Shown: positions 14,992-36,711 of the stretch, piece by piece | Position numbering within the stretch: position 1 is the stretch's first letter | Layout: the number at the start of each line of letters is the position of its first letter | Assembly (NCBI GenBank): GCA_001513105.1 | Contig: LFSH01000082.1 | Coordinates: forward strand, 101,832 to 138,542 | Reading direction: 5' to 3' | Source: Clostridiales bacterium DTU070 | GTDB lineage: Bacteria > Bacillota > Clostridia > DSM-8532 | Length of the DNA stretch: 36,711 nucleotides | The notes under the pieces: generated by a model | What the model was told of the DNA's origin: nothing | The model's database searches: none | Seen by the model: the letters and a program-made list of their open reading frames with translations, nothing else | Translations under genes and position numbers: made by a program

Positions 14992-15939
14992 ATGGAATTA
15001 AAACCAACGGCGCATAAAACCGTAAAATCCATGAAGAAAGGTTTTATGTATTATGTGAAAAGGGACTGGCAGTTATATCTTTTGCTGATTATCCCAATAG
15101 CCATGGTTATAGTTTTTAAATATTTCCCAATGGCAGGGCTGGTAATTGCGTTTAAAGACTATAAAATTCTGAAAGGCTTTATGGGAAGCGAATGGGTGGG
15201 CTTTAAGAATTTCGTGGAAATCTTTTCGAACAAGGATTTCTACAGGGCTCTCAGGAACACATTGACCCTGAACGGACTGGATCTTCTGCTCGGTTTTCCG
15301 ATGCCTATTATTCTTGCCCTTATGCTTAATGAGATCAGATCGCTTTGGTTTAAGAAAATTAATCAGACATTATTATACCTACCCCATTTTCTTTCATGGG
15401 TTATAATTGCAGGAGTGGCTTACCAGCTGCTTCAGCCCGGTACAGGACTGGTAAACGTTCTTTTGCGCAACATGGGACTTAAGGAAGTACCTTTCCTGAC
15501 TGAAAATACACACTGGGTCTTCACCTACGTATTTATAGGCATATGGCAGTCAATGGGCTGGGGTACTATTATTTATCTTGCATCTATTACAAGTATCAAT
15601 CCGGAGTTGTATGACAGCGCGACAATAGACGGTGCAGGGCGCTGGGGAAAAATACGCTATATAACCCTCCCTGGCATCAGAAGTACTATAACAATGCTTT
15701 TGATCATCAACCTCGGTAGAATCATGGGCAGCTCCTTTGAACGTGCTCACAGCCTTGGCAACCCAATTGTCAAGGAGGTTTCAAGCGTTATCGCCACCTA
15801 CGTATACAGTGCAGGTATCCAGGCGCAAAAATACAGCCTCACCACTGCCGTAGGATTGTTCCAGTCGGTGGTCGGCCTTATACTGGTACTTGTTTCCGAC
15901 TGGATATCCAAGAAAATCGGTGACGAGGGCCTGTTATAG
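14992..15939 (+). CDS. sugar ABC transporter permease, LplB type (CUT1)
   Basis: 315 aa inner-membrane permease with six predicted transmembrane helices. It starts with the usual LplB-like N-terminus (KRDWQLYLLLIIPIAMVIVFKYFPMAGLVIAFKDYK). The cytoplasmic EAA loop that contacts the ATPase is DSATIDGAGRWGKIRYITLPGI. The RBS GAAGGGG is eight bases upstream. It is the first gene of a three-gene operon (permease, permease, binding lipoprotein) with 20 and 55 bp gaps. No ATPase gene is present, as is normal for this subgroup, which borrows a shared MsmX-type ATPase. Confidence 0.93.
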   Translation: MELKPTAHKTVKSMKKGFMYYVKRDWQLYLLLIIPIAMVIVFKYFPMAGLVIAFKDYKILKGFMGSEWVGFKNFVEIFSNKDFYRALRNTLTLNGLDLLLGFPMPIILALMLNEIRSLWFKKINQTLLYLPHFLSWVIIAGVAYQLLQPGTGLVNVLLRNMGLKEVPFLTENTHWVFTYVFIGIWQSMGWGTIIYLASITSINPELYDSATIDGAGRWGKIRYITLPGIRSTITMLLIINLGRIMGSSFERAHSLGNPIVKEVSSVIATYVYSAGIQAQKYSLTTAVGLFQSVVGLILVLVSDWISKKIGDEGLL

Positions 15940-15959
15940 AAACAAGAAAGGGGTTCATT

Positions 15960-16868
15960 ATGGCTAACAAGAGTGATTTTAAATATGCCAATTATACAAA
16001 AAGCAAAGCCATAGATCTGGCTGCCGATATTTTCATATACATTACCGTAGCATTGCTGTCCATTTTATGCGTGCTGCCTTTTATACATGTAATTGCGAAA
16101 TCCTTAAGCTCCGATGCAAAGGTTACCAGTCAGCTTGTTTACCTTATACCGAAGGATTTCAACCTTAAGGCATACAAAAGCGTATTCGGCGACCCGTCAA
16201 TGATCAGGTCATTGTGGCAAACCATCAAGGTTACCGTATTATTTACCGCGCTTGGAATGTTTTTAACGATATGTGCCGCATATCCGCTGACAAGAAAGCG
16301 TCTTAAAGGGCGGAACATCATTTCGATATTCTTTATAATTACACTTTATTTCAGCGGCGGTATTATTCCTGATTATTTGCTGATGCACAGGCTGGGTCTG
16401 TTGAACAATTCGGCATCCCTGATACTTCCTCTTGCCTTCAGTGCTTATAATATGATAATAATGAGGACCTCGATACAGTCAACAGTACCGGACAGCCTTG
16501 AGGAGTCCGCGTTCCTGGACGGTGCAGGCGACATAAGGATTCTTGTACAGATTGTGCTTCCGCTGTGTAAGCCGATTATCGCAACATTGTGCCTGTTCTA
16601 CGCGGTTGGACGCTGGAACGCATACCAGGATTCGGTTTTCTATATTACAAGACAACCCTTGTACCTGCTCCAGCATAAACTGAACCTGTTGATTCAGACA
16701 ACTAACACCACCCTCACCTCGTCCGAGGCACAACCAGATACCGTAACCAATCCTGAGGTAATTAAATCAGCATGTATTATATTTGCTACATTGCCAATCA
16801 TTATAACATACCCCTTTGTTCAGAAGTATTTTGTGAAGGGTGTAATGATTGGTGCCGTTAAAGGTTGA
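15960..16868 (+). CDS. sugar ABC transporter permease, LplC/YtcP type (CUT1)
   Basis: 302 aa. Six hydrophobic segments; N-terminal DIFIYITVALLSILCVLPFIHVIAKSLSS is typical of the YtcP/LplC subgroup. The EAA motif reads EESAFLDGAGDIRILVQIVLPLCKP, and the C-terminus FVQKYFVKGVMIGAVKG is the family hallmark. GAAAGGGG precedes the ATG. It forms the membrane channel with the LplB-type subunit encoded just upstream. The substrate is set by the binding protein, so it cannot be read here. Confidence 0.93.
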   Translation: MANKSDFKYANYTKSKAIDLAADIFIYITVALLSILCVLPFIHVIAKSLSSDAKVTSQLVYLIPKDFNLKAYKSVFGDPSMIRSLWQTIKVTVLFTALGMFLTICAAYPLTRKRLKGRNIISIFFIITLYFSGGIIPDYLLMHRLGLLNNSASLILPLAFSAYNMIIMRTSIQSTVPDSLEESAFLDGAGDIRILVQIVLPLCKPIIATLCLFYAVGRWNAYQDSVFYITRQPLYLLQHKLNLLIQTTNTTLTSSEAQPDTVTNPEVIKSACIIFATLPIIITYPFVQKYFVKGVMIGAVKG

Positions 16869-16923
16869 TAGCAATAAACCTGAACAAGGTTTAATTGACT
16901 ATAAAAAGTTAGGAGGATTAATC

Positions 16924-18555
16924 ATGAGGAGAAAATCGACAAGAACAGTATTTGTTATTCTGTCTTTACTGCTTGTTGCGGTATTGCTTGCCGCCTGTGG
17001 TACAGATACTCCGAAAACTACCCCGGGTAATGAAACTACACCGACTGGTGCAGCCCTGGAAGACGACAAAGTATTCAAAAATCGGGTTACCATTCAAATC
17101 CCGGTTTACGACCGCGGTGTAGAAGGACTTCCGCCGGTTGACGACAACTATTGGACCCGTTGGATCCAGAAGGAATTCGGAGACAAGAACAATATTACTG
17201 TTGAGTATGTCGCAATTCCAAGAAGCGACGAAGTAAACAAGTTCAATATGCTTCTTGCAGCAGGTGACGCTCCGGACATCATTTTCCACTACGACTTCCC
17301 GGCAGCCGTTGCTTACTATGATGCAGGTGCAATTCAGAAAATTGACATTGACATGCTGAAACAATATGCTCCTACTTATTATCAGAAAAACGTTGACCTT
17401 GACATGCTCAAATACGGTGTCCTGGATGGTGAGCAATACTTTATCTTTGCAAGCCGCCCGACCGCATACAACTGGCTTACAATGATCCGTCAGGACTGGC
17501 TTGACAAGGTTAATATGTCAATGCCGACGAATCTTGATGAGTACATCAATGTATTAAGGGCATTCCGTGACAACAAGCTCGGCGGACCGAACACAATTCC
17601 TGCAGCTCACAGGCTTCCTTATCCGAACGGATATTTCGCAAATGCATACCGTCCTTATCCGATACCCGAGGAAGAACTGGCACTGTATTCCGACCTCTCA
17701 GTTGTGGCTTTGACATGGGAACCTGTAAAACAGAATATCAAAACCGACAACCTGTTATGGAATGAAGGATTGATCAGCCAGAACTTCGCTCTTGACTCAG
17801 ACGGAACAAAAGCCAAGGCCGATTTTGTGAACGGTGTTGCGGGAGTTTACGGTGACTACCTGACAAAGGAAGGAATCATCGATGTTCTCCTTTCCAACGT
17901 TCCTGATGCAAAACTTTCATTGCTGCCTGCCACAGCAGGAGTTCCAAAGGGCGGAGTACCTGCTGAACGTGCATACTGGCCGTTTGGAATGATTATCGGC
18001 TTCAACTCGGCATCAAGCGAAGATGAAGTAAAAGCTACTATGATGCTTCTTGAGTGGATGATCCAGCCCGATGTACTGTTCACTCTCCAGAACGGTATTG
18101 AAGGCAAAACTTATACAATGGGTGAGGACGGACTGCCCGTTGCCATTGGAGATTACAAAGGCGAAGAACGCATGAACTACAACTCCAACAAGGATATGTG
18201 GTGTCTTGTAATCGAAGGTAAGGACTATGGCAGCGAAGAAGCTAACCTGAAGGTCCAGATGACCACCTTTGCACCCGACGGATTCGAATACCTGATCAAG
18301 GACAGGTATGAAGAATGTATTGCAAACCAGAAGTACTGGTACACAGACTTCCTGTTCGACGTAGGTATTCCCGCTGTTTCCGAGTATAAATCCATACTGC
18401 AGGAAAAATTCCAGGAATACTACACAGCATTGGTAATGTGCGATCCTTCAGAATTTGACGCTCTTTATGAGAAATACTGCAAGGAATACCTTGATGCAGG
18501 ATTCCAGAAGATTATAGACCAGAAGAAAGAAGCCTACGAAAGAATGAAGAAGTAA
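16924..18555 (+). CDS. extracellular sugar-binding lipoprotein of the ABC transporter (LplA type)
   Basis: 543 aa from the ATG at 16924, which has AGGAGG upstream; an in-frame GTG at 16849 lies inside the preceding permease gene and is not the start. The lipoprotein signal is MRRKSTRTVFVILSLLLVAV followed by LLAAC, with the lipidated Cys at 25. A Thr/Pro-rich linker and a type-2 solute-binding fold follow. That fold includes LLAAGDAPDIIFHYD and, near the C-terminus, SSEDEVKATMMLLEWM, both frequent in the family. Several Trp and Tyr (WTRW, NWLTMIRQDWL, KYWYTDF) could stack on sugar rings. With cellobiose phosphorylase next door, cello-oligosaccharides or other beta-glucosides are the guess; this is inference from context. 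Confidence 0.92.
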   Translation: MRRKSTRTVFVILSLLLVAVLLAACGTDTPKTTPGNETTPTGAALEDDKVFKNRVTIQIPVYDRGVEGLPPVDDNYWTRWIQKEFGDKNNITVEYVAIPRSDEVNKFNMLLAAGDAPDIIFHYDFPAAVAYYDAGAIQKIDIDMLKQYAPTYYQKNVDLDMLKYGVLDGEQYFIFASRPTAYNWLTMIRQDWLDKVNMSMPTNLDEYINVLRAFRDNKLGGPNTIPAAHRLPYPNGYFANAYRPYPIPEEELALYSDLSVVALTWEPVKQNIKTDNLLWNEGLISQNFALDSDGTKAKADFVNGVAGVYGDYLTKEGIIDVLLSNVPDAKLSLLPATAGVPKGGVPAERAYWPFGMIIGFNSASSEDEVKATMMLLEWMIQPDVLFTLQNGIEGKTYTMGEDGLPVAIGDYKGEERMNYNSNKDMWCLVIEGKDYGSEEANLKVQMTTFAPDGFEYLIKDRYEECIANQKYWYTDFLFDVGIPAVSEYKSILQEKFQEYYTALVMCDPSEFDALYEKYCKEYLDAGFQKIIDQKKEAYERMKK

Positions 18556-18564
18556 AAAATATTA

Positions 18565-18598
18565 AAAAAAGAGCCGGTTTTTCAAACCGGCTTTTTTA
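18565..18598. terminator. strong bidirectional terminator between the ABC operon and cellobiose phosphorylase
   Basis: AGCCGGTTT (18572-18580) and AAACCGGCT (18584-18592) form a nine-pair stem. It is flanked by seven A on the left and six T on the right, so it works on both strands for the convergent genes. Confidence 0.92.
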
Positions 18599-18607
18599 AT
18601 GTAAAGA

Positions 18608-18680
18608 TTACATTCCTGAATAGGGAGCCATTATGGAATGTAACACGATTGTGAGGAGGATATATGCAAAACAAAACAAA
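18608..18680 (+). other. hairpin, strong RBS and six-codon mini-ORF, probably the stub of a lost gene
   Basis: TTACATTCC (18608-18616) is the inverted copy of GGAATGTAA (18635-18643). It is followed by GTGAGGAGGATAT and an ATG at 18663 that reads MQNKTK and stops at TAG. Right after it the phosphorylase gene ends on the opposite strand. A perfect start region without a gene body suggests that a former fourth plus-strand gene of the transport operon was replaced or deleted. A regulatory mini-ORF is the alternative. Confidence 0.35.
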
Positions 18681-18684
18681 GTAG

Positions 18685-21120
18685 CTAACCCATAACAACA
18701 ATCACATTATGTTCACTGCCTTTTTCGGATACCGGCAGAATATTTCCGTCAATCTCCCTGCCGTCCATGATTACTTTCTTAACACCTTTGCATATATGAT
18801 CAGGATTCTGAACCTCGATATTATACCTTGCCTCCCTGAATTCTCTTGTAACCTTGAATCCATCCCATGATGCGGGTATGCACGGATCTACCATAAGTCC
18901 GTCATACGCCGGCCTGATGCCGAGAATATACTGGGTTATCGCAACATAGTTCCAGGCTGCCGTACCGGTCAGCCAGGAGTTCTTTGCCTCGCCGAAGCGG
19001 ACCGCATCCCTTCCGGCTATCATCTGCGAGTATACATACGGCTCTGTCCTGTGAATATCACTGATGTCTTCAATATATGCGGGCGCTATTTTTGCATATA
19101 CTTCGAAGGCCCTGTCGCCGCGGCCTATTACTGTCTCAGCGATGGCAATCCAGGGATTGTTGTGGCAGAAAATCCCCGCATTCTCTTTATAACCGGGCGG
19201 ATATGACGAAATCTCGCCCAGGTTCAGGTAGTATTCACTGTATGCCGGTGTCTGGAGTATTATTCCGTACTTTGTATCAAGCCTTTCCTTTACCGAATCA
19301 AGGGCTTTTTGGGCAAGACCTTCTTTAACGCCTATTCCGGCCATGACACAGAACCCCTGCGGCTCGATAAAGATTTGCCCTTCTTTGCATTCCCTGCTGC
19401 CTACTTTATTCCCGTAATGGTCGTAGGCCCTGAGGAACCATTCTCCGTCATAGCCATACTCAAGCACCGTCTCAGCCATTTTATCAATGTGCTTCTGTGC
19501 CTCCTGCGCCTCTTCGTTATATCCAAGCCTTCTGCAAAGCTCAACATACTCAGGTCCTATTGCCACAAACATGCCGGCTATGAACACCGATTCGGCAACC
19601 CTGCCGTCAATGAGCCCGCAGGTCTGGAAGGATTCATCGGGCTCGGTGGAGAAACAGTTCAGGTTAAGGCAGTCGTTCCAGTCTGCCCTTCCGATAAGCG
19701 GCAGGCCATGAGGCCCAAGGTTATTTATAACATGATAAAATGAACGCTTCAGGTGCTCAAAAAGCGTGTCCTTCTTATTCTCGTCACAGTCAAACGGAAC
19801 CATTTCATTCAGAATATCAATATCCCCTGTTTCCTTGATATATTGGGCGGTTGCCAGGATAAGCCACAGCGGATCATCATTGAAACCGCTTCCTATATCG
19901 GAATTCCCTTTCTTTGTAAGTGGCTGGTACTGATGATATGCACTTCCGTCCTCAAGCTGCGTTGATGCTATATCTATAATTCTCTGCCTTGCCCTTTCTG
20001 GTACCTGGTGAACGAAACCGAGCAGGTCCTGGTTGGAATCCCTGAAACCCATTCCCCTGCCGATTCCTGACTCAAAATACGAAGCGCTCCTCGACATGTT
20101 GAACGTAACCATGCACTGGTACGGATTCCAGATATTCACCATGCGGTTCAGCCTTTCATCGTGGCTCTGCACCGTGTATTTTGAGCAAAGCCCTGTCCAG
20201 TAATCCCTGAGTTCGTTAAAAGCCTTTTCAACGCAGGAATCATCAATAAAGCGCTTCTGCATCTCTATTGCTCTTTTCTTGTTTATTACGCCTTTTCTCT
20301 CCCATTTCTCTTCATTCGGGTTTTCAACATAGCCTAATACGAAAATAAAGCTCTTCTGTTCCCCGGGTTTCAGGTTCATTTTTATGAAATGGGATGCTAT
20401 CGGGGACCAGCCGCTGGCTATTGAATTTGAGGCCTTGCCTGCCGCAACATTCTGCGGGGAATCAAAGCCGTTGTAAAGGCCCAGAAAGGTCTCCCTGTCG
20501 GAGTCAAAACCGTCAATCGGGGAATTAACCCAGTAAAATGCGTAGTGGTTTCTTCTTTCCCTGTACTCTGTTTTATGGTAAATTGCCGTTCCTTCAACTT
20601 CAACCTCGCCGGTACTGAAGTTTCTCTGGAAGTTGGTCATATCATCCATTGCATTCCACAGGCAGAATTCAACGAATGAGAACAGTGATATTTCCTTCTC
20701 CTCATCGGTCTTATTCCTGATTACAACCTGGTTTACCTCCCCGTTGTAATCGAGGGGAACAAAGGACAGCTGGCTTGCTTCAATACCGTTGCGTTCGCCT
20801 GTGATGCGGGTATACCCGAGGCCATGCCTGCATTCATACCTGTCAAGTTTTCTCTTAACGGGCATCCACCCGGGTGTCCAGTAATCCCCGTTGTCGTATA
20901 TGTAGAAATATCTTCCGCCGTTATCGACCGGCACATTGTTGTAGCGGTATCTTGTAACGCGCCTTAACCTTGCATCGCGGTAGAAACAGTAACCACCTGA
21001 AGTATTTGAGATAAGCGAAAAGAAATCCTGGCAGCCAAGGTAGTTAATCCACGGGTAAGGAGTTGTTGGAGTTGTAATTACATACTCCCTGTTTAGGTCA
21101 TCAAAATAACCGAACTTCAC
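18685..21120 (-). CDS. cbp: cellobiose phosphorylase, glycoside hydrolase family 94
   Basis: 811 aa, the length of clostridial cellobiose phosphorylases and well short of cellodextrin phosphorylases (about 980). The cytoplasmic enzyme splits cellobiose with phosphate into glucose-1-phosphate and glucose, saving ATP. The N-terminus [20 protein letters not shown] and PYPWINYLG are the family hallmark, and the [11 protein letters not shown] block (from about residue 477) carries the catalytic aspartate. [20 protein letters not shown] and GLMVDPCIP near the C-terminus are also typical. The start is GTG at 21120 with AGGGGGA seven bases before. A LacI-type operator lies 22 bp upstream, identical to one at the lacI promoter. 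It shares a bidirectional terminator with the ABC operon, which probably imports its substrate. Confidence 0.94.
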
Positions 21121-21140
21121 AATAAATCCCCCTTTGTTCT

Positions 21141-21155
21141 GTGAACGCGCGTTTA
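21141..21155. promoter_or_regulatory. LacI-type operator before cellobiose phosphorylase
   Basis: GTGAACGCGCGTTTA carries the perfect palindrome AACGCGCGTT and is identical over 15 bp to the site at 22322-22336. It lies 21-35 bp upstream of the GTG start, where bound repressor would block transcription. I see no clear -10/-35 pair for this gene; it may be read partly from the lacI promoter. Confidence 0.75.
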
Positions 21156-21262
21156 TTTGTTTTTATCAACAACCTGAGCGGTAATGCATCATTTCCGGCA
21201 GCAATTTTATTCCGGAACCCGGCCTTTTCCCATCCGGAACCCTGATGCATGGCGGCAGGCGC

Positions 21263-22309
21263 TTAATGCGGCCCTGCACAGCTGTCTCTTACGACCAGCT
21301 CAGTTTCAAGGTTAAATATATTTATATTGCCTGATGTAGCTCCTATCATTCTCAGAACCTCGTCCACAGCTTTCTGCGCCATTGAATAAAGCGGCACACG
21401 GACTGTTGTGAGTGCGGGTTTTACCAGCGAAGCAGGCATAATATCATCAAAACCTGTAATTGAAATATCTTCCGGTATGTTGAGCCTGCTGTTCTGCAAT
21501 ACTTCTATCGCCGACAAAGCCATGTCGTCATTGCAGCAAACCAGGGCTGTAGGGAGCTTTCCATGATTAACCAGTTTTAAAACTTCCTGCGCCGCCGTCT
21601 TCTTTATGAATTCTCCCTTCAGTACCCATTCTTCCATCGGGCTGAACCCGTATTCATCCAGTACTTCCCGGTAGGCTTCATACCGCACTCTTCCCGAGTA
21701 TGTGTTCATTCTTCCGCTGAGTATTCCAATATCTCTGTGTCCAAGGCTTATCAGGTACTCAATTACTTTCCGTATACCTTCGTCATCTGTGCAGTTTATT
21801 ACGGCCACCCTGCCTTTTTTTATCCTCTGTAAAATCTTCTCCGATGAATAGTCAATAACCGAAAAGGGATAACCCATGGCCGCAACATCTGCTATTACAT
21901 CAATTTCCTTCTCGGTTCCTACAATAATTCCCGCATCGATTCTTCTTTCAACAAAAGCCTGCTTTATCTTTTCATAGTCCTTCACCGTGTATATGGAGTT
22001 AACCAAAACATATATACCGTTGGCGTTAGCCCTGTCAATAACCGCGTCAACAAACGGAGAAAAGTAATTGTTCCTGTATATGTGATTCTCATTTGTTCTT
22101 TCAGCTATACTTACGATAAAAAGACCTATTGTGTCTGTTTTTTTGCCTGCAAGAACCCTGGCCGAGTTATTGGGGTGGAAATGGTACCGCTCAATAACCT
22201 CCATAACTTTTTTACGGGTTTCTTCAGGTACATTCTTGTAATTATTGATAACTCTTGACACGGTGCTCCTGGAAACACCGGCAAGCCTTGCAATATCTTC
22301 ACTTTTCAT
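21263..22309 (-). CDS. LacI-family transcriptional repressor
   Basis: 348 aa, a normal size. The N-terminal helix-turn-helix and hinge (residues 1-58) read MKSEDIARLAGVSRSTVSRV, then INNYKNVPEETRKKVMEVIE and NNSARVLAGKKTDTIGLF. A periplasmic-binding-protein-like effector domain follows, with typical TALVCCNDDMALSAIEVLQ and IPEDISITGFDD motifs. The gene lies 140 bp upstream of cellobiose phosphorylase on the same strand. Its own promoter overlaps a copy of the operator, so autorepression plus control of the phosphorylase is likely. The inducer is presumably a cello-oligosaccharide or a sugar phosphate. The RBS before the ATG is weak, in keeping with low expression. Confidence 0.92.
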   Translation of the reverse strand: MKSEDIARLAGVSRSTVSRVINNYKNVPEETRKKVMEVIERYHFHPNNSARVLAGKKTDTIGLFIVSIAERTNENHIYRNNYFSPFVDAVIDRANANGIYVLVNSIYTVKDYEKIKQAFVERRIDAGIIVGTEKEIDVIADVAAMGYPFSVIDYSSEKILQRIKKGRVAVINCTDDEGIRKVIEYLISLGHRDIGILSGRMNTYSGRVRYEAYREVLDEYGFSPMEEWVLKGEFIKKTAAQEVLKLVNHGKLPTALVCCNDDMALSAIEVLQNSRLNIPEDISITGFDDIMPASLVKPALTTVRVPLYSMAQKAVDEVLRMIGATSGNINIFNLETELVVRDSCAGPH

Positions 22310-27959: not shown

Positions 27960-27989
27960 AAACAGGATTGTCACACCCTGACAATCCTG
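27959..27989 (-). terminator. terminator of murA overlapping its stop codon
   Basis: CAGGATTGTCA (27963-27973) and TGACAATCCTG (27979-27989) form an eleven-pair perfect stem with a 5-nt loop, followed by TTTT on the minus strand. The last codons and the stop of murA are inside the stem. It also lies right after the stop of the convergent YfbR-like gene. Confidence 0.75.
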
Positions 27990-29227
27990 GCTCCCAAGGT
28001 CTGAAGTTTTTTTTCCATTGATTCATAGCCTCGATCGATATGGTAAATATCGCTTATTTCGGTCCTGTCCTTTGCACACAGCCCTGCAAGAATCAGCGCA
28101 GCGCCGGCTCTCAGGTCTGTAGCCCTGACCTGGGCCCCGAGGAACCTGACCCCGCCTTCGATTATTGCCGTTCTGCCGTCTATTTTTATCCTGGCTCCCA
28201 TCCTCTTTAACTCGCTTATATGCATGAAACGGTTTTCAAAAATGGTTTCAACAACCATACTTGTCCCTTCGGCCTGGCTTAAATATGCCGTCATCTGGGC
28301 CTGCATGTCGGTGGGGAAACCCGGGTACGGATGGGTCTTTACATCAACCGCCTTCGTACGTTCGGGCGCTTTTACATATATGCAGTTAAGCTCCTCGGCT
28401 ATTTCCACGCCCGACTCCCGCAGTTTTGCAATAACGGGTTTAAGGTGATCGGACATGGCATTTTCAATGGTTATTTCACCGCCCGTCATCGCAGCGGCAA
28501 GCATAAAGGTTCCGGCTTCAATCCTGTCGGGTATGACTATATGTTCGGCCGGTGTAAGTTTGTCGGTGCCGATAACCCGTATGGTATCGGTTCCCGCGCC
28601 GGTTACATTTGCTCCCATCGATACCAGCATTGTGGCAAGATCCACAATCTCCGGCTCGGTGGCGGCGTTTTCGATCACCGTCTGGCCTTTCGCAAGAACA
28701 GATGCCATTAATATGTTTTCAGTTGCCCCAACACTTGGGAAATCAAGATATACCCTTGCTCCGGTCAATCTGCCCTTTACATGGGCTTCAACATAACCGT
28801 GGCCGGTATTGATGGTTGCTCCCAGGGCTGAAAAACCTTTCAGGTGCAGATCCACGGGCCTGCTGCCAATGGCGCATCCTCCGGGAAGCGGTACCCTTGC
28901 CCGGCCTTTTCTTGCCAAAAGCGGCCCCATAACAAGAAATGAACCCCGTATTGAATTAACAAGTTCATATGGTGCGGTATACTCGGTAACAGAATTTGTA
29001 TCTATTGAAATTTCCCTTTTTTCAACATTAAAATCAACTTTTGCCCCTAAAGATGCAAGCAGGTCACACATGGTATGTACATCCTCAAGGTCCGGTACAT
29101 CTCTCAATACACTTTTCCCTTCTGTCAGCAGGCATGCAGCCAGTGCCGGAAGAATGGCATTTTTCGCTCCGCTTATTCGAACCGTACCTTTGAGGGGAAT
29201 ACCACCGTCAATAATAAATACGCCCAT
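27971..29227 (-). CDS. murA: UDP-N-acetylglucosamine 1-carboxyvinyltransferase
   Basis: 418 aa from the ATG at 29227, which has AAGGAGAGG upstream; a longer reading from 29296 adds residues without family likeness. MurA transfers enolpyruvate from PEP to UDP-GlcNAc, the first committed step of peptidoglycan synthesis in the cytoplasm. Lys22-Asn23 (SGAKNAILP) bind the substrates, and Cys118 in PLPGGCAIGSRPVDLHL is the catalytic, fosfomycin-sensitive cysteine. The C-terminus (RGYESMEKKLQTLGARI) is typical. It is the monocistronic last gene before the YfbR-like gene. Many Firmicutes have a second murA, so this could be either paralogue. Confidence 0.95.
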   Translation of the reverse strand: MGVFIIDGGIPLKGTVRISGAKNAILPALAACLLTEGKSVLRDVPDLEDVHTMCDLLASLGAKVDFNVEKREISIDTNSVTEYTAPYELVNSIRGSFLVMGPLLARKGRARVPLPGGCAIGSRPVDLHLKGFSALGATINTGHGYVEAHVKGRLTGARVYLDFPSVGATENILMASVLAKGQTVIENAATEPEIVDLATMLVSMGANVTGAGTDTIRVIGTDKLTPAEHIVIPDRIEAGTFMLAAAMTGGEITIENAMSDHLKPVIAKLRESGVEIAEELNCIYVKAPERTKAVDVKTHPYPGFPTDMQAQMTAYLSQAEGTSMVVETIFENRFMHISELKRMGARIKIDGRTAIIEGGVRFLGAQVRATDLRAGAALILAGLCAKDRTEISDIYHIDRGYESMEKKLQTLGARIVRV

Positions 29228-29569
29228 TATTGCCTCTCCTTCTCTCGTCTTATGTACATAATTCCCCTGATGCGGTGGTGAAAAAATTATGTTCACAATT
29301 ATTATGTTCAGTTTTAAATTGCTTTATTAAGGCGGTTTCTACCGGAATATCCTTTTAAATAATTGACAATTCAATCAGTTTTTAAACCTGAATTGCCAAA
29401 AAAAGAAACCCTGGCAGACCTTATTTTTTGATAAAGTTTGCCAAACCCGCAATTAAACAAAATCATTTATTATTATACTATAAATAATAATAATTGCATC
29501 ATAAATTTTCCTGTATTTCGTTTCCAAATTCAACCGGTTTTCGGCCTGCTTTATTGCTCCAGGGCGATT
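29228..29569. other. AT-rich gap between the fibronectin III operon and murA, no gene
   Basis: No ORF is credible. The inverted repeat CAATTCA (29367-29373) and TGAATTG (29389-29395), plus a T-rich run on the minus strand near 29400, may contribute to a weak terminator for the large surface-protein genes. The murA promoter should lie here, but I cannot fix it. Confidence 0.4.
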
Positions 29570-32500
29570 TTACAGTTCTCCTGCGTACATCAGTATTTTT
29601 TCAATTATTTCCAACAGTTCATAAAGTGTTATTGTGCTGCCGGGATTCATCCCGTCAATATAATCACTGAGAATCCCGTTCGCAACGGCGAATGAGACGG
29701 CGTCCCTGAACGGTTCGCCTGTTTCGCTTATGAAATTCGCGTATTCGGGTGATACGGGAACATTTGATATGTTGATCCCGGTTTTCCTGCGCAAAACCAT
29801 AACGGCTGCATAAACTGCCTGATCTGTCCTTAACGGTTCATTACCCGAATTAATATACTGCGGATGCAAAAGGCCTGACCGTACCGCCTTTTCGGTTATA
29901 TTTGCATTCCCGTATTCATAGGGAATAATGTCAAACAGGTATTTCATACCTTCATTGACGGTAAGTTCCTTTGCGTAATCAGTGTTTTTCCCTGAAAGGG
30001 AAGGCATTTCATATATTGAAGTAATATTTCCGATTATGGCATTCAGTTTATGATCGGCGGTATAGTTATTATACGCAAGGTCGGGCTCAATCACCGCAAC
30101 CGCGCCGCTTTTTACCGGGTACACCGCAATTCTCCGTTCTTCAGGGAAGTATAAATTATCAACATCGTACCATTTTCCGTCATCGAAATCATAGAACCGT
30201 GTGCCGGCTTTGTCCATTTTTTCGGGTGCAACCGCAAACAACAGTTTAACCGGGCGTATAAAACCGCCAATCGGGAAGAAGCTCCCGTCGCTGCCCGCGG
30301 TCACTTTAAGCTCGCTTACCGGTATTACATACTTTTTACTTTTCTCGGGCCGTAATTCATATACCGGCGTTCTTATGTCAATTCTCACCGTTAAATCCTT
30401 AAATGTCTGTTTCAGCCTGAAATATGTATCCTGCAGGAAACTTCCCGGGATAATCGTCAGTTCCGCGTCAGGCGTTTTAATAATAAGATTTTGCATTACG
30501 CCCGACAACGTTTCAATAATCCCGCTGTCCAGTTCAACGCGTATAACCTCGGTATACGGCGGCGGGTTTGAAAGATCTATCGAAAACGTATGGTTTGTCA
30601 TCATCCTTATTTTTTCCGAAAGGATGTGGGCGTTAATGCCCGAAACCCTCGCGCTCCAAATTCCGTCAACGGCAACCCCGTCTATCTCAACTATCTCACC
30701 AACGGGCACATCCTCTACCGGGATACCGGCATCGTATTCGGATCTGCCCTTGCGTGTTACTATCATAATTACTGCCGTAGGCTCAGACCTTAACCCCGTT
30801 TCAGCGCTGAAGGAATACAGCCTTGCATAATACAGGAAGTTTGCTCTCAGGCCGGTTACCCTGTATTCCGACCCGTCCACATTGTATTCTGTGGATTCTG
30901 AAAAATCGGCATTCTCTGATATTTCAAGGATAAATGTTACCCTTTCATCCGGGATCCATTCATAGAATATGCTGTTCTCGGTTACTGCGTCGGGGGTGTC
31001 CTTTATTCCGAATCCCCTCGGTCTTGGAGGAGGGCTGTACGGTTCGGTTTTAACCACAAGGGTTTTGCTCCATTCCGATGCCTTCCCTCCCAGGCTTGCG
31101 GGCGACACGGCCTGTATCCAGAAATAATAAACTGTATTTGCGGTAAGCTGTTCCACCCTCAGATAAGGCTGGCTGCGGAGCTGTTCGTAAGTTACTGTTA
31201 TCGTGTTGGGCGCATTGCCGACGTTATCTTCTGTTCCGTACTTGATATTGTAACTGTAGCCTTCGCGCCAGGTCCAGAAAAGATCCACATATGTATCGGC
31301 GGCAATACCCTTAAGGTCGGTGGGTACGGTAGGATATTCGACCACAGGCGGATATTCAGGCAATGTTGTAACAATTATCGGATCTGACGGCTCAGACTCG
31401 ATATTTCCTTCGGTATTATAAACGGTAATCCATACCAGGTAGGTCCTGTTGGGCTCAAGCCCGGTTGCGTCAAATTGGAACACGGTGTTTTCATCCGTGC
31501 CGAAATCTGGTGTCAAGACCGGTGAAAGGGGCTTTTGCAGGTCAAGCACATAGTTTTTTCCAAGGTCACTGTATGAAATATAATCCCTTCCGGTGATGTT
31601 TTTGACATTGCTTAAGGCCTTGTCATACTCCACGCAGTGGATCCTGATCTCCCAGCCCGTCTTATAGCTTACCTCCCGTTCGGGCTTTTTGTTCGGATCA
31701 CCGTCGGGCAGGTTCCTGTTTTGAATATATTCATCGTAGGTAAAGGAGTTGCCGGAATTATAGAATCCGCCTGATACTTTGCCTTCGGGATCGTCCCTGC
31801 GGATTACGTACAGCCATTTCCCGAGCTCTTTGCTGTACATTTCCTTCCATGCCTTTTCCATCTGCATTGAAATCCGGTCTTTTCCGACCGAATCGCCCGG
31901 CTTCAGCCTGAACGGCGGAGAAGGCGGAGCCAGGGGCTTGTCGGCTTCCTTGTCAGGCCGCGTGATAATAACCTTCACGCTTGGTTTTGACAAATACGGC
32001 ACCGATATCATGTATTCTCCGTCTTCACTTTCGATGAGATAATTCTTTTTTGCTACCATTACCACATAGTAAACGGTATTCGGCCTGAGATTGGTAATTT
32101 CGTATCGATATCCAATGATTCTTCCGGTGTTCAGTTCCTTTACCTGGTTCTGCGAACCCATTCTGACATTCGATACTATTTTCTTTGTCAGCGGCGGCAG
32201 GTTATCCAGGTTAATGTCGTTTATATTGTCACACAGGTACAAATCGTAATAAACATCGGTGTCTATCTCGCCTTCGCCCGTTATCGGCGGAAGCCAGAGC
32301 AATGTAACGCTTTTGTCGGTTAAAAGCTCGTCATATACTACCGGACCCGGATCTGCGTTCTGAAACCTGTCCACAAACTCAGGGCTTTGAGGATATTCAG
32401 GTATCTGTGTTTTCAATGAAATCTGCGTGGTGGAATAGAACGGCACATATGTGCCGTCAGGCCTGTAGGCATCGGCTTCTATCTTGTACTTGTATTTTTC

Positions 32501-33520
32501 AACCTCTTCTGGCTTCAGTTTCACCTCAATACGGTCATTATCCTCTATTACCGCGAAGAATGTTTCATTTCCTCTTTCATCGTAACGGTATAATTTATAC
32601 TGCACCCTTGTAAATATGGCGCTTCCGATCGGTCCTTTAACAATAGGATCCCAGAACAGCATCCATCTGAGCCATTTGACCCCATCACTGTCAATGGACT
32701 CGCCTATATACTTTGCACGAAGAAGGATCTCTGTCTTGACCCGTACAACGGGCAATTCTTCATGGGGTGTTACAGATACATCGGAATTAACCAGGGGTAT
32801 TACTTTTATTGAATACTCCCTGCCCGGAAGGGCGTTTGTATAGATATATTCAAGCCTTCCTCCCACAACCGAAACCCTGCTGTTTTCGGTTCCGATATCC
32901 GCCCCGATTATATCGGGTATTGATGGGGGCTGTGTAAAGCCCGTTGTATCAGAGATTAATATTCTGTAATCTATTCTTCCATCGGTATCCCAAACATCAT
33001 CCCAGACTATCCTTATGTCGTTGGTTCCGGGAATCAGTTCAGCGTTGAATTCGAGGCCGGTAAGAAACTTAATGCGGTTTGATTTTCCCGACACAAAGGT
33101 ATACTCGCCATACTGGCCGTACGTGTACCTGGACCTGCCGTAAAACTCGTATATCGTTCCGTGCTCAAGCTCGATTCCGTATCTTGTCGGGTTAAAGCTC
33201 CTGGCGGTTTCGTTCAGCGTAAACTGGATTACATCATCTATAACCCTTCCTGTACCGCGCTCCACCTTGTTAAAATAAAAAACCTGGGATCTTTCCACTG
33301 TTGTTATATCACTGGGGTATGTCGGGGCATCCCATTCAAACTCCACATACCAGTTCTGCCTTCCGGTATATTCATAGCCTATATCCGATACCCTTACATT
33401 CTGGGGCGGCGTGGACGGCATTGCCTGCTGGGCGAAAACTATATCTATTACAAAGGCCGCAACCATGGATATCACGATAAGCCACACTATTATTCTTGCA
33501 ACAATAACTCTCTTCCTCAT
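29570..33520 (-). CDS. large secreted protein with fibronectin type III-like domains and SLH-like C-terminus
   Basis: 1316 aa from the ATG at 33520 (GGAGGGAAGG upstream); an in-frame GTG at 33547 overlaps the preceding gene. A signal peptide (MRKRVIVARIIVWLIVISMV...) ends near VFA at about residue 30. About seven fibronectin type III-like modules follow, each with the pattern TxVxLxW and LxPNTxYYxxV, for example LRPNTVYYVVMVAKKN and LTANTVYYFWIQAVSP. A beta-rich domain at about 940-1120 with LIIKTPDAELTIIPGSF resembles domains seen in S-layer-anchored proteins. The last 170 residues hold degenerate SLH-like units ending LYELLEIIEKILMYAGEL. It probably stays at the cell surface. It is the second gene of a pair. 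Confidence 0.82.
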   Translation of the reverse strand: MRKRVIVARIIVWLIVISMVAAFVIDIVFAQQAMPSTPPQNVRVSDIGYEYTGRQNWYVEFEWDAPTYPSDITTVERSQVFYFNKVERGTGRVIDDVIQFTLNETARSFNPTRYGIELEHGTIYEFYGRSRYTYGQYGEYTFVSGKSNRIKFLTGLEFNAELIPGTNDIRIVWDDVWDTDGRIDYRILISDTTGFTQPPSIPDIIGADIGTENSRVSVVGGRLEYIYTNALPGREYSIKVIPLVNSDVSVTPHEELPVVRVKTEILLRAKYIGESIDSDGVKWLRWMLFWDPIVKGPIGSAIFTRVQYKLYRYDERGNETFFAVIEDNDRIEVKLKPEEVEKYKYKIEADAYRPDGTYVPFYSTTQISLKTQIPEYPQSPEFVDRFQNADPGPVVYDELLTDKSVTLLWLPPITGEGEIDTDVYYDLYLCDNINDINLDNLPPLTKKIVSNVRMGSQNQVKELNTGRIIGYRYEITNLRPNTVYYVVMVAKKNYLIESEDGEYMISVPYLSKPSVKVIITRPDKEADKPLAPPSPPFRLKPGDSVGKDRISMQMEKAWKEMYSKELGKWLYVIRRDDPEGKVSGGFYNSGNSFTYDEYIQNRNLPDGDPNKKPEREVSYKTGWEIRIHCVEYDKALSNVKNITGRDYISYSDLGKNYVLDLQKPLSPVLTPDFGTDENTVFQFDATGLEPNRTYLVWITVYNTEGNIESEPSDPIIVTTLPEYPPVVEYPTVPTDLKGIAADTYVDLFWTWREGYSYNIKYGTEDNVGNAPNTITVTYEQLRSQPYLRVEQLTANTVYYFWIQAVSPASLGGKASEWSKTLVVKTEPYSPPPRPRGFGIKDTPDAVTENSIFYEWIPDERVTFILEISENADFSESTEYNVDGSEYRVTGLRANFLYYARLYSFSAETGLRSEPTAVIMIVTRKGRSEYDAGIPVEDVPVGEIVEIDGVAVDGIWSARVSGINAHILSEKIRMMTNHTFSIDLSNPPPYTEVIRVELDSGIIETLSGVMQNLIIKTPDAELTIIPGSFLQDTYFRLKQTFKDLTVRIDIRTPVYELRPEKSKKYVIPVSELKVTAGSDGSFFPIGGFIRPVKLLFAVAPEKMDKAGTRFYDFDDGKWYDVDNLYFPEERRIAVYPVKSGAVAVIEPDLAYNNYTADHKLNAIIGNITSIYEMPSLSGKNTDYAKELTVNEGMKYLFDIIPYEYGNANITEKAVRSGLLHPQYINSGNEPLRTDQAVYAAVMVLRRKTGINISNVPVSPEYANFISETGEPFRDAVSFAVANGILSDYIDGMNPGSTITLYELLEIIEKILMYAGEL

Positions 33521-33536
33521 CAAACCTTCCCTCCGA

Positions 33537-36500
33537 TTACCATTCACCCAAAAGCTCCAGTACTGTAATCACTGCCTTTAGCAGCTCCTCCACCGTTGCT
33601 TTTTCGGAAGCGTGATAGGAATAATTCCCGTCAAGCTCCGCAATACCCAGGTCCAGGGCTATTACAACCCTGTTGTATAAGGCGTCGGGTATTTCCTTTG
33701 AATTTGAAATATGCATATATGTTGAAGGCTGCATCATTGCGGACGGTATACCGGTTTTGTAAGCATAAATCTCCACAACGAGGGAATCGGCCTGTCCCCT
33801 GTTGATATCCCTGTTTACCGAGGAAACAGGGATTATGTCTCCAATGCCGTAGAAATTAATCTTCGCTGCTGTTGACAGGTCCTTTACCTGTCCTGTTGTT
33901 CCGGTTACAATTTCAAACAGGGTAACAGCATTTTCCCCGGATACAAAATCGGCCGGGTAAAGGGTTCTGCCGAAAACCTTGCGCAGGTCATATTTTTGAG
34001 ACAGTTTTAGCAAATCCGGATCGGTAAAACCGTCTGTTTCGGGCACCGTAATCTGGTGAATGCTGAAAACGGTATATTCTCCCGGAACTTTTGCGGTTAT
34101 AAGCACATACGGGAACATCCAGCCTTTTACGCCCGACGGTTCCACCCACGTGGTTTTCCCGCGGGGCAGCATATACGGTACAGTAAGGTTCTGGCTGCTG
34201 TTGTAAAGCAATTTCAGCTTGATGCCGCCCGAAAGCTCAGTTAACTCCGATCTGTTGACTACCGAGGCTGAAAGCCCTCTTCCTCCGTCTATAATGTCCT
34301 TGATATATAATGACAGTTCTTCTTCTATTCTTTCTATGACAAGCTCTATCAGTTTCTCCAGGTCGGCATAGCTCTGATAGGTCATTGTGCTTTCCTTTTC
34401 AAGGAGTTTTTCCAGCTCCCTGTCCAGGATACCGTATTTGAACGGCCCTGAAGCATCAGGTTTTTTCAGTATGTTATATATTATCTCGTTAATTTCGGCG
34501 TATGTCCTTCTCATGTTCAGCGAAGCAAAGCCGATGTCAAATACCCCGGAGTCGTATGAATAGCCAAGGACGGGCAGGACAGATCCCTTTGCCTTCCGCC
34601 CGACAGTCAGTTCCAGCATTGTTTCCTTAACGCCGGTAACACCCGGATGCTTTTTCAGAACCTCGGGATTTACGGTATCGGCTGTAAATATCAGTTCCCC
34701 GCCTGCTATTTTAATGGTCAGGCGGCTGTTGGTCTTCTGAAGGGTTTCAATTATTTCCATAGGGATTATTATTACATCCTTGTCCGCATCGGGTTTCTCT
34801 TTCGATATATCAACGGTGACACCTGTATAACCTGCTGCCTTCATGAAGTTTGAAATCATCGCGCCCTTGAGAAGAACCCTGTTTACAGATTTATTCGGTT
34901 CATCAACGGTAAAATACAGTTTTTTCGTAAGTTTATCGGCCCTTGATTCAAAGATGTCCCTTATTTCATCACGCCTGTGATCGTCGTCATAGTCCTTCTG
35001 GCTGAAGTCGGTACGTATCGTAACAGGCCCGATATGGTTTGAATCATCCACATTTCTCGCCCATATCTTGACATAATACCGCGTATTCGACAAAAGCGGT
35101 TTCCTTACGTATGTTCCGTCGCTTTTTTTCTGCCTTGCCTGGTAAATCCTTGCATAGTACATGTATTTGTCGCTTTCGGTGTCTTCCACGTAAGCATTTG
35201 TTTTTTCACGGTAGAACTCTATCCTTGTTCCGTCCTTCAGGGTATACCCGTAATCGCTGTCTTCCTCATCCCTGTCATACTGCAGGGTTATATAATCATC
35301 ATAATCGTCGGTTCTCAGTTCTATGAAGTAATCATAGACCGGTTCTCCCTCAAAGCGTATTTCTATCTCATTCAGCGTGTTCCTTGTTTTCATCTGTATC
35401 GGCGCGCGGTATCGGCTGCGCCAGATTTCGTCATCGCTGTCATACCACATAGTGTCGTCGCCGTCGTTATAATAGGGCAGTATGTCGTACCATGTATCGG
35501 GTTCAAGATCATATAGCCTGAAATAATACCTTGTACCGTCCTTTACAACGGAATACCTGCTGCGGGGAAGCTCGGTATATGAATAGTCGGGCTGGCCTGC
35601 CTTTTTAATCATGACCTTAAGGTCCTCGGCCCGGACTCCCCTTGTCAGGCTTATGTTGAAACCTAACTGAACGTCGGCAACAGCTTCCAGGAACTTCGGT
35701 GCAGGAACCATTTTCGTTGTCACCGGGATGCTTACCCAGCTGCTGTATACGGCATCATCCGTCCCCCTGTTGCGCACCGCTCTTATACTGAAATAATAAA
35801 GGCGGTTGGGTTTTAAGAACGGCAGGTTAACCGGGAAACGCACCATACGGTTATTGCTTTCGTTGTACGAAAAGCCCAGCTCATACAGCTTTGTAGTATA
35901 TACGTCGATACTCAGCTCGGTATCGTTACTGTTTGTACTGTAATTCCTATATACATCCATAAAGCCGGGATTGTATGCATTTCCGATATGGTACTCGTCA
36001 TTGATATAATCCTCTTTCTTTGCATCGGGGCTTAACTTCTTTGTTGTACACACTATTTCATACGTAACGTCAGGTTCCGCATGCAGCCATGTAAGCGTTA
36101 CCTTTGCATCGGTAAGCTCCGGCTCGCCTCTTTCATTGGTTGCGATCGAAAACTCAACCGGTGTCCTGGGGAGTCTTGCAAGATCATCCGTGCTTCCCGA
36201 ATCGGTTTTCGGAGTTGTAATGAATTTTACGGGTGTTTCCTCGCCTGTAAGGAAATTATCCTCATCATCAACATACAAAACGGCCTGCATTTTGAAATAG
36301 TATGGGGTATTGGGCTTAAGAGGCTCGCCGTTTTCGGGAGGGAACCCGGTTATCAGCGTGGACAGAATCTCATCAGGATTATCATCGGGATACGTCGTAA
36401 CGATCGTATCCACGAGCCTGAAACTGCCTTCTTCATTCGTGTCGCTCATATACAGCCTGTACTCAATCCTGCGCCCGTTCATAACATCGGTGTATTTTTT

Positions 36501-36711
36501 CCAGTCTTCGTTTGTCAGTATCTTTGAAAAACTTACGCTTATTCCTTCAAACACTGGCTTTCCTGTTTCCGGATCCAGCTCATCCTCGGGCTCCACTCCA
36601 AGGCTAAAGCCGGGTATGGGTATCGGCATATCCTTTGCGGGATAGGTTGTGAAACTTACCACCGGAGATATATACGAAATTATTTCACTGAGCTTTTCCA
36701 TATCACCGTCA
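33537..36711 (-). CDS. large fibronectin type III-like surface protein, N-terminus beyond the window
   Basis: At least 1057 codons; the frame stays open to the window edge, so the true start and any signal peptide are outside. The visible part has about four fibronectin type III-like modules (about residues 1-570), with typical LKPNTPYYFKMQAVLYVDD, LKPNRLYYFSIRAVRNRG and LLSNTRYYVKIWARNVDDSN. A VIIIPMEIIETLQ...LTIKIAGGELIFTAD domain matches in pattern the beta-rich domain of the downstream protein. The stretch MLPRGKTTWVEPSG, then ITAKVPGEYTVFSIHQI, follows, and the C-terminus has degenerate SLH-like units ending TVLELLGEW. The stop lies 16 bp before the next start, so both are co-transcribed and are clear relatives. 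Confidence 0.82.
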   Translation of the reverse strand, partial: DGDMEKLSEIISYISPVVSFTTYPAKDMPIPIPGFSLGVEPEDELDPETGKPVFEGISVSFSKILTNEDWKKYTDVMNGRRIEYRLYMSDTNEEGSFRLVDTIVTTYPDDNPDEILSTLITGFPPENGEPLKPNTPYYFKMQAVLYVDDEDNFLTGEETPVKFITTPKTDSGSTDDLARLPRTPVEFSIATNERGEPELTDAKVTLTWLHAEPDVTYEIVCTTKKLSPDAKKEDYINDEYHIGNAYNPGFMDVYRNYSTNSNDTELSIDVYTTKLYELGFSYNESNNRMVRFPVNLPFLKPNRLYYFSIRAVRNRGTDDAVYSSWVSIPVTTKMVPAPKFLEAVADVQLGFNISLTRGVRAEDLKVMIKKAGQPDYSYTELPRSRYSVVKDGTRYYFRLYDLEPDTWYDILPYYNDGDDTMWYDSDDEIWRSRYRAPIQMKTRNTLNEIEIRFEGEPVYDYFIELRTDDYDDYITLQYDRDEEDSDYGYTLKDGTRIEFYREKTNAYVEDTESDKYMYYARIYQARQKKSDGTYVRKPLLSNTRYYVKIWARNVDDSNHIGPVTIRTDFSQKDYDDDHRRDEIRDIFESRADKLTKKLYFTVDEPNKSVNRVLLKGAMISNFMKAAGYTGVTVDISKEKPDADKDVIIIPMEIIETLQKTNSRLTIKIAGGELIFTADTVNPEVLKKHPGVTGVKETMLELTVGRKAKGSVLPVLGYSYDSGVFDIGFASLNMRRTYAEINEIIYNILKKPDASGPFKYGILDRELEKLLEKESTMTYQSYADLEKLIELVIERIEEELSLYIKDIIDGGRGLSASVVNRSELTELSGGIKLKLLYNSSQNLTVPYMLPRGKTTWVEPSGVKGWMFPYVLITAKVPGEYTVFSIHQITVPETDGFTDPDLLKLSQKYDLRKVFGRTLYPADFVSGENAVTLFEIVTGTTGQVKDLSTAAKINFYGIGDIIPVSSVNRDINRGQADSLVVEIYAYKTGIPSAMMQPSTYMHISNSKEIPDALYNRVVIALDLGIAELDGNYSYHASEKATVEELLKAVITVLELLGEW

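Follow-up and report, generated by a model that had tools for sequence, protein, structure and literature searches.

Two adjacent genes of Clostridiales bacterium DTU070, here called A and B, encode probable SLH-type fn3 surface proteins, a known kind, and, judged from their sequences, form a locus that is old and conserved across many Clostridia, with murA usually next downstream. The explanation that we prefer, and to which we would give an even chance, is that the two proteins together make up a structural complex of two subunits, carried on the cell wall. This is suggested by the predicted SLH fold of both ends, the signal-peptide-like starts, a gene order kept in all but one of the loci that could be judged, near-identical A and B trees, the presence of SLH machinery and CsaB in the genome and the lack of any catalytic, cohesin or dockerin family in either protein. 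Against it stand the ligand motif, in register in just one of the six repeats of the window proteins, the possibility that the agreement of the trees could come merely from side-by-side vertical inheritance, and two exceptions: locus L148 has B without an adjoining A, and genome G002 lacks both.

From their N-termini we infer that A and B are exported, and further that they are located on the wall, paired with each other and structural in role, as two subunits of a complex on the outer face of the cell wall. The C-terminal SLH-type trimer, if it folds as predicted, would hold each protein on the wall; the predicted ZU5/GAIN-like beta domain would adjoin the trimer, and the fn3-like array (recognised by Pfam in B and by profile homology in A) would project outward. 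A most likely pairs with B, since the two are homologous yet distinct, adjacent and kept one to one. Outside the window's family the gene run often continues with a third protein, C, which is small and basic. That A and B form a fibre or sheath, as the initial annotation proposed, is a guess.

Both genes lie on the minus strand of the window, the whole stretch of 36,711 nucleotides that was analysed, with A upstream of B (Table 1). A, the upstream partner whose full sequence the initial annotation asked for, continues beyond the window edge: the whole ORF is L002:12402-7369 (-), with 1677 amino acids, and its stop codon ends at window position 33537. The adjacency originally described holds, but not the extent of 7 kb, the whole pair being 9 kb long. 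The 16 bp said to lie between the A stop and the B start are confirmed if B begins at the ATG; an alternative start, GTG at 33547, would yield 1325 amino acids and an 11-base overlap with A. Two N bases occur inside gene A at L002:10544-10545, just past window position 36711, where the frame is open in relatives. Inspected by eye, the N-termini of both proteins consist of a charged stretch, then a hydrophobic stretch, then an alanine-containing end, a signal-peptide-like arrangement that speaks against a cytoplasmic location. Ten further loci, inspected by eye, have similar starts in both proteins, that of A in L113 being doubtful. Within the genome of the window, a search with the in-window part of A gave one match, and one with B gave B itself plus one weak match (E 0.17). 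Promoter-like sites number 36 (19.5 in shuffles) and terminator-like sites 16 (10.5), and none marks the ends of the A-B unit convincingly.

Table 1. Coordinates of the A-B pair, its predicted domains and its downstream neighbour, in window positions.
Feature	Position	Strand	Extent or basis
murA, downstream neighbour (context only)	27971..29296	(-)	TIGR01072 579.8 bits, cut-off 392.7
Gene B	33520..29570	(-)	1316 aa from ATG at 33520
SLH-type trimer of B (predicted)	29576..30073	(-)	model residues 221-386
ZU5/GAIN-like beta domain of B (predicted)	30083..30667	(-)	model residues 23-217; 4dlo Z 9.6, 3kbu Z 8.9
fn3-type array of B (approximate limits)	30737..33430	(-)	Pfam fn3 and PDB profile match; rest inferred
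Signal-peptide-like start of B	33431..33520	(-)	~30 residues, by eye
Gene A, 3' part inside window	33537..36711	(-)	1057 of 1677 aa; 5' end outside window
SLH-type trimer of A (predicted)	33543..34037	(-)	model residues 303-467
ZU5/GAIN-like beta domain of A (predicted)	34053..34892	(-)	model residues 18-297; 3kbu Z 9.3, 4dlo Z 8.9
Helical insert in beta domain of A	~34287-34502	(-)	helices at model residues 148-219
fn3-like beta array of A, in-window part	34944..36711	(-)	sub-cut-off Pfam fn3, fn3 of relatives, homology to B

Among the 99 genomes around the window (window included), A was found in 37 and B in 35, one or other being present in 38 genomes belonging to 7 of 48 families; G002, 98% complete, is among those that have neither. 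A search with a full-length B alignment yielded 88 relatives, from which 78 loci were kept, a collection that overlaps with the 99-genome set. When genome contigs were scanned with nothing but the in-window part of A, no relative turned up. Carriers include Thermoclostridium caenicola, Acetivibrio mesophilus, A. straminisolvens, A. alkalicellulosi, Herbivorax, Pseudobacteroides cellulosolvens, Anaerobacterium chartisolvens and Ruminiclostridium papyrosolvens, cellobioparum, sufflavum and hungatei, together with Vallitalea and Epulopiscium records and many MAGs. Chance is excluded, since the pair is conserved in tens of genomes. Of the 68 loci with at least 500 bases to judge, 67 have A immediately upstream of B and on the same strand, with gaps of -47 to 323 bases. 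In the remaining one, L148 (upstream of 9875), B has no A beside it. Two loci depart from the usual form in other ways, L172 having a second A-like ORF (L172:21591-23762) and L176 having A and B each in two ORFs, perhaps through draft-assembly errors.

The two proteins are, as far as profile comparison can tell, old relatives of each other. Their C-termini match at E 4.9e-29 and the whole proteins at E 4.5e-42, in keeping with the original description of relatives sharing one order of modules, while plain BLAST of A against B gave nothing significant (best E 0.082). A recent tandem duplication was rejected: A-B identity in the profile alignment is 14-17% and ORFs, when sorted by best match, fall into A and B types. 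Across 48 loci with A, B and murA, the distance correlation is 0.986 between A and B (permuted maximum 0.325) against 0.829 between A or B and murA (permuted maxima 0.150 and 0.155). Similarly, 33 of 45 splits are common to the A and B trees, with 28 and 26 in common with murA. This agreement fits a pair inherited as a unit, probably mostly vertically.

The fn3 content is clearest in B, where Pfam fn3 (PF00041) scores 65.5 bits against a cut-off of 25, with its best stretch at residues 401-492, four stretches at E <= 1 and two at E <= 0.01; the B profile also matches fn3 chains in the PDB at residues ~656-905. The window part of A reaches 16.7 bits, under the same cut-off, the whole A of the window has no Pfam family at E <= 0.01, and the full A profile matched no PDB chain. 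In relatives, fn3 was detected at E <= 0.01 in 9 of the 25 A proteins scanned (best 1e-10) and in 26 of 26 B proteins. The several fn3-like units originally read in both proteins are thus well founded for B and less so for A. Pfam scans of these 25 A and 26 B proteins bore out the further remark that no catalytic or carbohydrate-binding module was visible: there was no catalytic, carbohydrate-binding, cohesin or dockerin family at E <= 0.01, and enzyme-named matches were to N-terminal Ig/fn3-like parts. A cellulosome scaffoldin was rejected for want of cohesin in these scans.

An adhesion or substrate-contact system, held on the wall by the SLH ends while the fn3 arrays bind plant polymers, matrix or other cells, is an unlikely reading but one that merits serious weight. 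Many carriers are cellulose degraders by name and, according to the part of PMC5256962 available, a Ruminiclostridium cellulolyticum fn3 protein, Ccel_0648, which may or may not be A or B, changes with the cellulose offered. An adhesin of that kind sits less easily with the lack of carbohydrate-binding families in the 25 A and 26 B proteins and with the Vallitalea and Epulopiscium records among the carriers; moreover, a simple adhesin needs no strict two-partner gene order.

The surroundings of the pair were compared inside and outside the window's family, defined in the motif and neighbour counts as the window together with L113-L135, a choice made by rank and identity; in each of the A, B and murA trees (48 genomes) the family forms a single split. 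Neighbours were counted from BLAST matches at E <= 1e-6 to few references, so that the counts are lower bounds, and the identities of the window's neighbours (murA, dnaD, DnaC-like ATPase), of atpC and of C were confirmed by family search. Same-strand murA lies within 5 kb of B in 44 of the 54 loci with room, namely 17 of 17 in the window's family and 27 of 37 outside it. The layout often met outside the family is A-B, the small SLH protein C, ywmB and murA, in some loci directly after atpD-atpC. There ywmB (DUF1779) is downstream of B in 27 of 37 loci, next to murA in most of these relatives, against 0 of 17 loci in the window's family; nor was it found in any of 25 genomes of that family searched (G000-G024). 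For C the corresponding counts are 20 of 37 and 0 of 17.

Protein C is exemplified by L104:4601-5467 (-), ~288 amino acids and directly after B, and occurs in 24 further loci. The four C proteins scanned score 95.7, 83.9, 97.5 and 66.2 bits with Pfam SLH, the two for which pI was computed are basic (9.5 and 8.9), and a strict TRAE-like pattern is present in 21 of 25, once in each. The N-terminal third of C has no Pfam match. A search by this N-terminal part found C in 0 of 32 genomes of the window's family (G000-G031) and in G032 and G056, and missed a C-like gene of G052, so that genomes of the family may still have C elsewhere.

Upstream of A, atpD-atpC are found in A. mesophilus, A. straminisolvens, Vallitalea, an Epulonipiscium MAG and others. 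Outside the window's family 34 loci contain full-length A and extend far enough, and 8 of them have atpC; most loci reach only ~5 kb upstream of A, and atpC is therefore often out of reach. This position is taken by divergent dnaD or dnaC-like genes in 15 of the 17 loci of the window's family. The simplest reading is one old locus from which the window's family would have lost C and ywmB while its upstream border changed. In Ruminiclostridium-type loci another giant gene lies upstream of A (L104:14870-19999 and L105:14416-19998), that of L104 encoding SbsC C-terminal S-layer domains and weak fn3. Divergent from A and directly upstream of it, L002:12611-14146 (+) encodes two LysM, one SH3 and one GH18 domain, and a LysM-SH3-GH18 gene is also found upstream in L093, L094, L113 and L114.

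The constancy of murA, complete in the window's family, would suit a wall-maintenance or morphogenesis factor tied to murA and working near the peptidoglycan instead of in a surface layer, as would the LysM-SH3-GH18 gene divergently upstream in the window's genus. We regard this as unlikely, if of some weight: murA, a housekeeping gene, may be a stable neighbour and nothing more, and a LysM-GH18 gene lies upstream of A, besides the window, in just three plus two loci of two overlapping sets that contain partly the same genomes.

Returning to the preferred structural complex, both C-termini are predicted to fold as SLH trimers, the matched part being the last ~165 residues in each. For the models, 31 sequences were aligned for B and 34 for A; mean pLDDT is 85.4 and pTM 0.56 for B, at which the placing of the B domains is uncertain, and 89.4 and 0.75 for A. 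Against solved Sap SLH trimers, the B trimer aligns with 3pyw at Z 14.8 (rmsd 3.3, 155 aligned) and the A trimer with 6bt4 at Z 13.8 (rmsd 3.0, 149 aligned), figures to be read with the caveat that a common arrangement of helices is enough to bring helical models to Z 13; the 13 best rows of both Z-ranked structure lists are SLH structures. Foldseek placed 6bt4 second for B (E 2.2e-4) and 3pyw first for A (E 8.0e-5). Its top row for B, an axonemal protein just before the Sap SLH (E 2.0e-4, TM-score 0.21), was set aside, as were Foldseek and structure rows to GH98, dextranases and others, which had low TM-scores or common beta folds.

At the level of sequence, the B profile matches Sap (E 1.1e-5), while the A C-terminal profile gave no match to SLH chains; its match to chain-length determinant proteins, over the helical insert, was taken as chance (E 0.03). 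Pfam SLH (PF00395) matches neither window protein. Among relatives, with a limit of E <= 1, it matches the C-terminus of 11 of 34 A proteins (best 2.1e-6) and of 23 of 31 B proteins (best 1.6e-11). The initial annotation had called these ends degenerate and SLH-like and had proposed comparing their predicted structures with SLH trimers; the comparison returned the SLH fold, and the Pfam matches of relatives agree with it.

The neighbouring beta domain, originally picked out by its V-x-I-P type pattern, was found in both proteins with a predicted ZU5/GAIN-like fold, although the best scores (Z 9.6 and 9.3) are only moderately above the level common for such comparisons. The autocleavage motif of the ZU5/GAIN class is H-x-S/T. 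None of 34 A or 31 B sequences has it at the last strands of the domain, and an autoproteolytic ZU5/GAIN protein was rejected on this ground.

The pyruvate-sugar pockets of Paenibacillus SpaA are formed by a glycine, a tryptophan and the TRAE motif's arginine (available part of PMC6081394). The corresponding six places read VSGEN, INRGQ and ATVEE in A of the window and LTVNE, LRTDQ and ITLYE in B; counting the arginine position only, the SLH arginine is in register in one of these six repeats. For repeats 1, 2 and 3 respectively, it is present in 1, 6 and 0 of 22 A proteins and 0, 14 and 6 of 24 B proteins of the window's family (27 of 138 in total), as against 6, 27 and 29 of 43 A proteins and 0, 39 and 38 of 55 B proteins outside it (139 of 294), repeat 1 being without arginine nearly everywhere. 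These counts put the window proteins at the eroded end, some members of their family keeping more.

As a control, the motif is kept in 23 of 30 SLH repeats elsewhere in the same genome, which carries 39 SLH matches; the 30 are the best of these 39 by E-value and so lean towards the canonical, the 30 include L024, which was read on the wrong strand, and the matches L024 and L030 end before the motif. The genome also encodes CsaB (266 bits, cut-off 213); canonical SLH repeats and CsaB are thus retained there while A and B drift. Of the 38 genomes that carry A or B, 37 have CsaB above the cut-off, compared with 34 of the 61 that carry neither (p 1.7e-6); outside the window's family the figures are 8 of 8 and 32 of 59 (p 0.012). 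These p-values are not independent evidence because the genomes are related. The one exceptional carrier is G030, whose match lies near a contig end. CsaB is a condition for binding pyruvylated wall polymer, not proof of it.

With C gone from the locus and the arginines mostly out of register, anchoring in the window's family may be weaker or may employ other contacts. Because of these same two features, it is conceivable, if improbable, that the SLH trimers of this family have given up sugar binding and instead fasten A to B, or to other SLH proteins, so that protein contacts hold together an obligate surface layer of two proteins. A decaying SLH function, with A and B of this family now released as soluble extracellular proteins, would account for the single arginine in register, the lack of a Pfam SLH match in the window proteins and the motif kept in 23 of 30 repeats (best 30 of 39) elsewhere in the genome, but is very doubtful given a trimer fold predicted with good confidence (mean pLDDT 85 and 89), a repeat 2 arginine kept in 14 of 24 B proteins of the family and a SpaA that, in the accessible part of PMC6081394, works with TVEE as one of its three motifs.

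As a structural complex held by SLH ends, A and B would be comparable with the SLH-anchored S-layer proteins Sap of Bacillus anthracis and SpaA of Paenibacillus alvei, with which they share three SLH repeats forming a trimer (predicted for A and B) and a large, extracellular-type protein of acidic pI (4.8). They differ in having C-terminal SLH, two homologous tandem partners, an fn3-type array and ligand motifs mostly out of register. SlhA of P. alvei, needed for swarming and biofilm, is likewise a non-enzymatic SLH surface protein with variant SLH motifs (PMC3776848 and PMC6081394); it is a single gene as described there, and is likened to A and B by description, not by sequence. Anchoring scaffoldins of cellulosomes in Acetivibrio and Pseudobacteroides, as partly accessible sources describe them, are also giant SLH surface proteins, in some cases of the same species; unlike them, A and B have no cohesin or dockerin family by Pfam.

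NCBIfam has no family for A or B, and no description of the pair was found in the open-access literature searched, including the available parts of PMC5590126, PMC4582956, PMC6106730, PMC3413522 and PMC6780208; to this extent the pair is, as first supposed, one not described before. The locus has been kept from Thermoclostridium to Vallitalea, usually by murA, with no stated function in that literature. For biomass conversion, the surface proteins of cellulose-degrading clostridia are of importance, and a two-partner SLH system with drifting ligand sites would test how far an SLH trimer can depart from its ligand while fold and partnership stay.

The same contig encodes a 1588-amino-acid SLH protein (G000:C69:58445-59368) in which a stretch matching the beta domain of the B profile (E 1.1e-8) is followed by three SLH repeats; unlike in A and B, [TS]R.E is kept in all three (L009, L010 and L018). 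Elsewhere in the window, positions 14992-22309 carry a GH94-type phosphorylase and a LacI-type regulator on the minus strand beside parts of an ABC sugar transporter on the plus strand.
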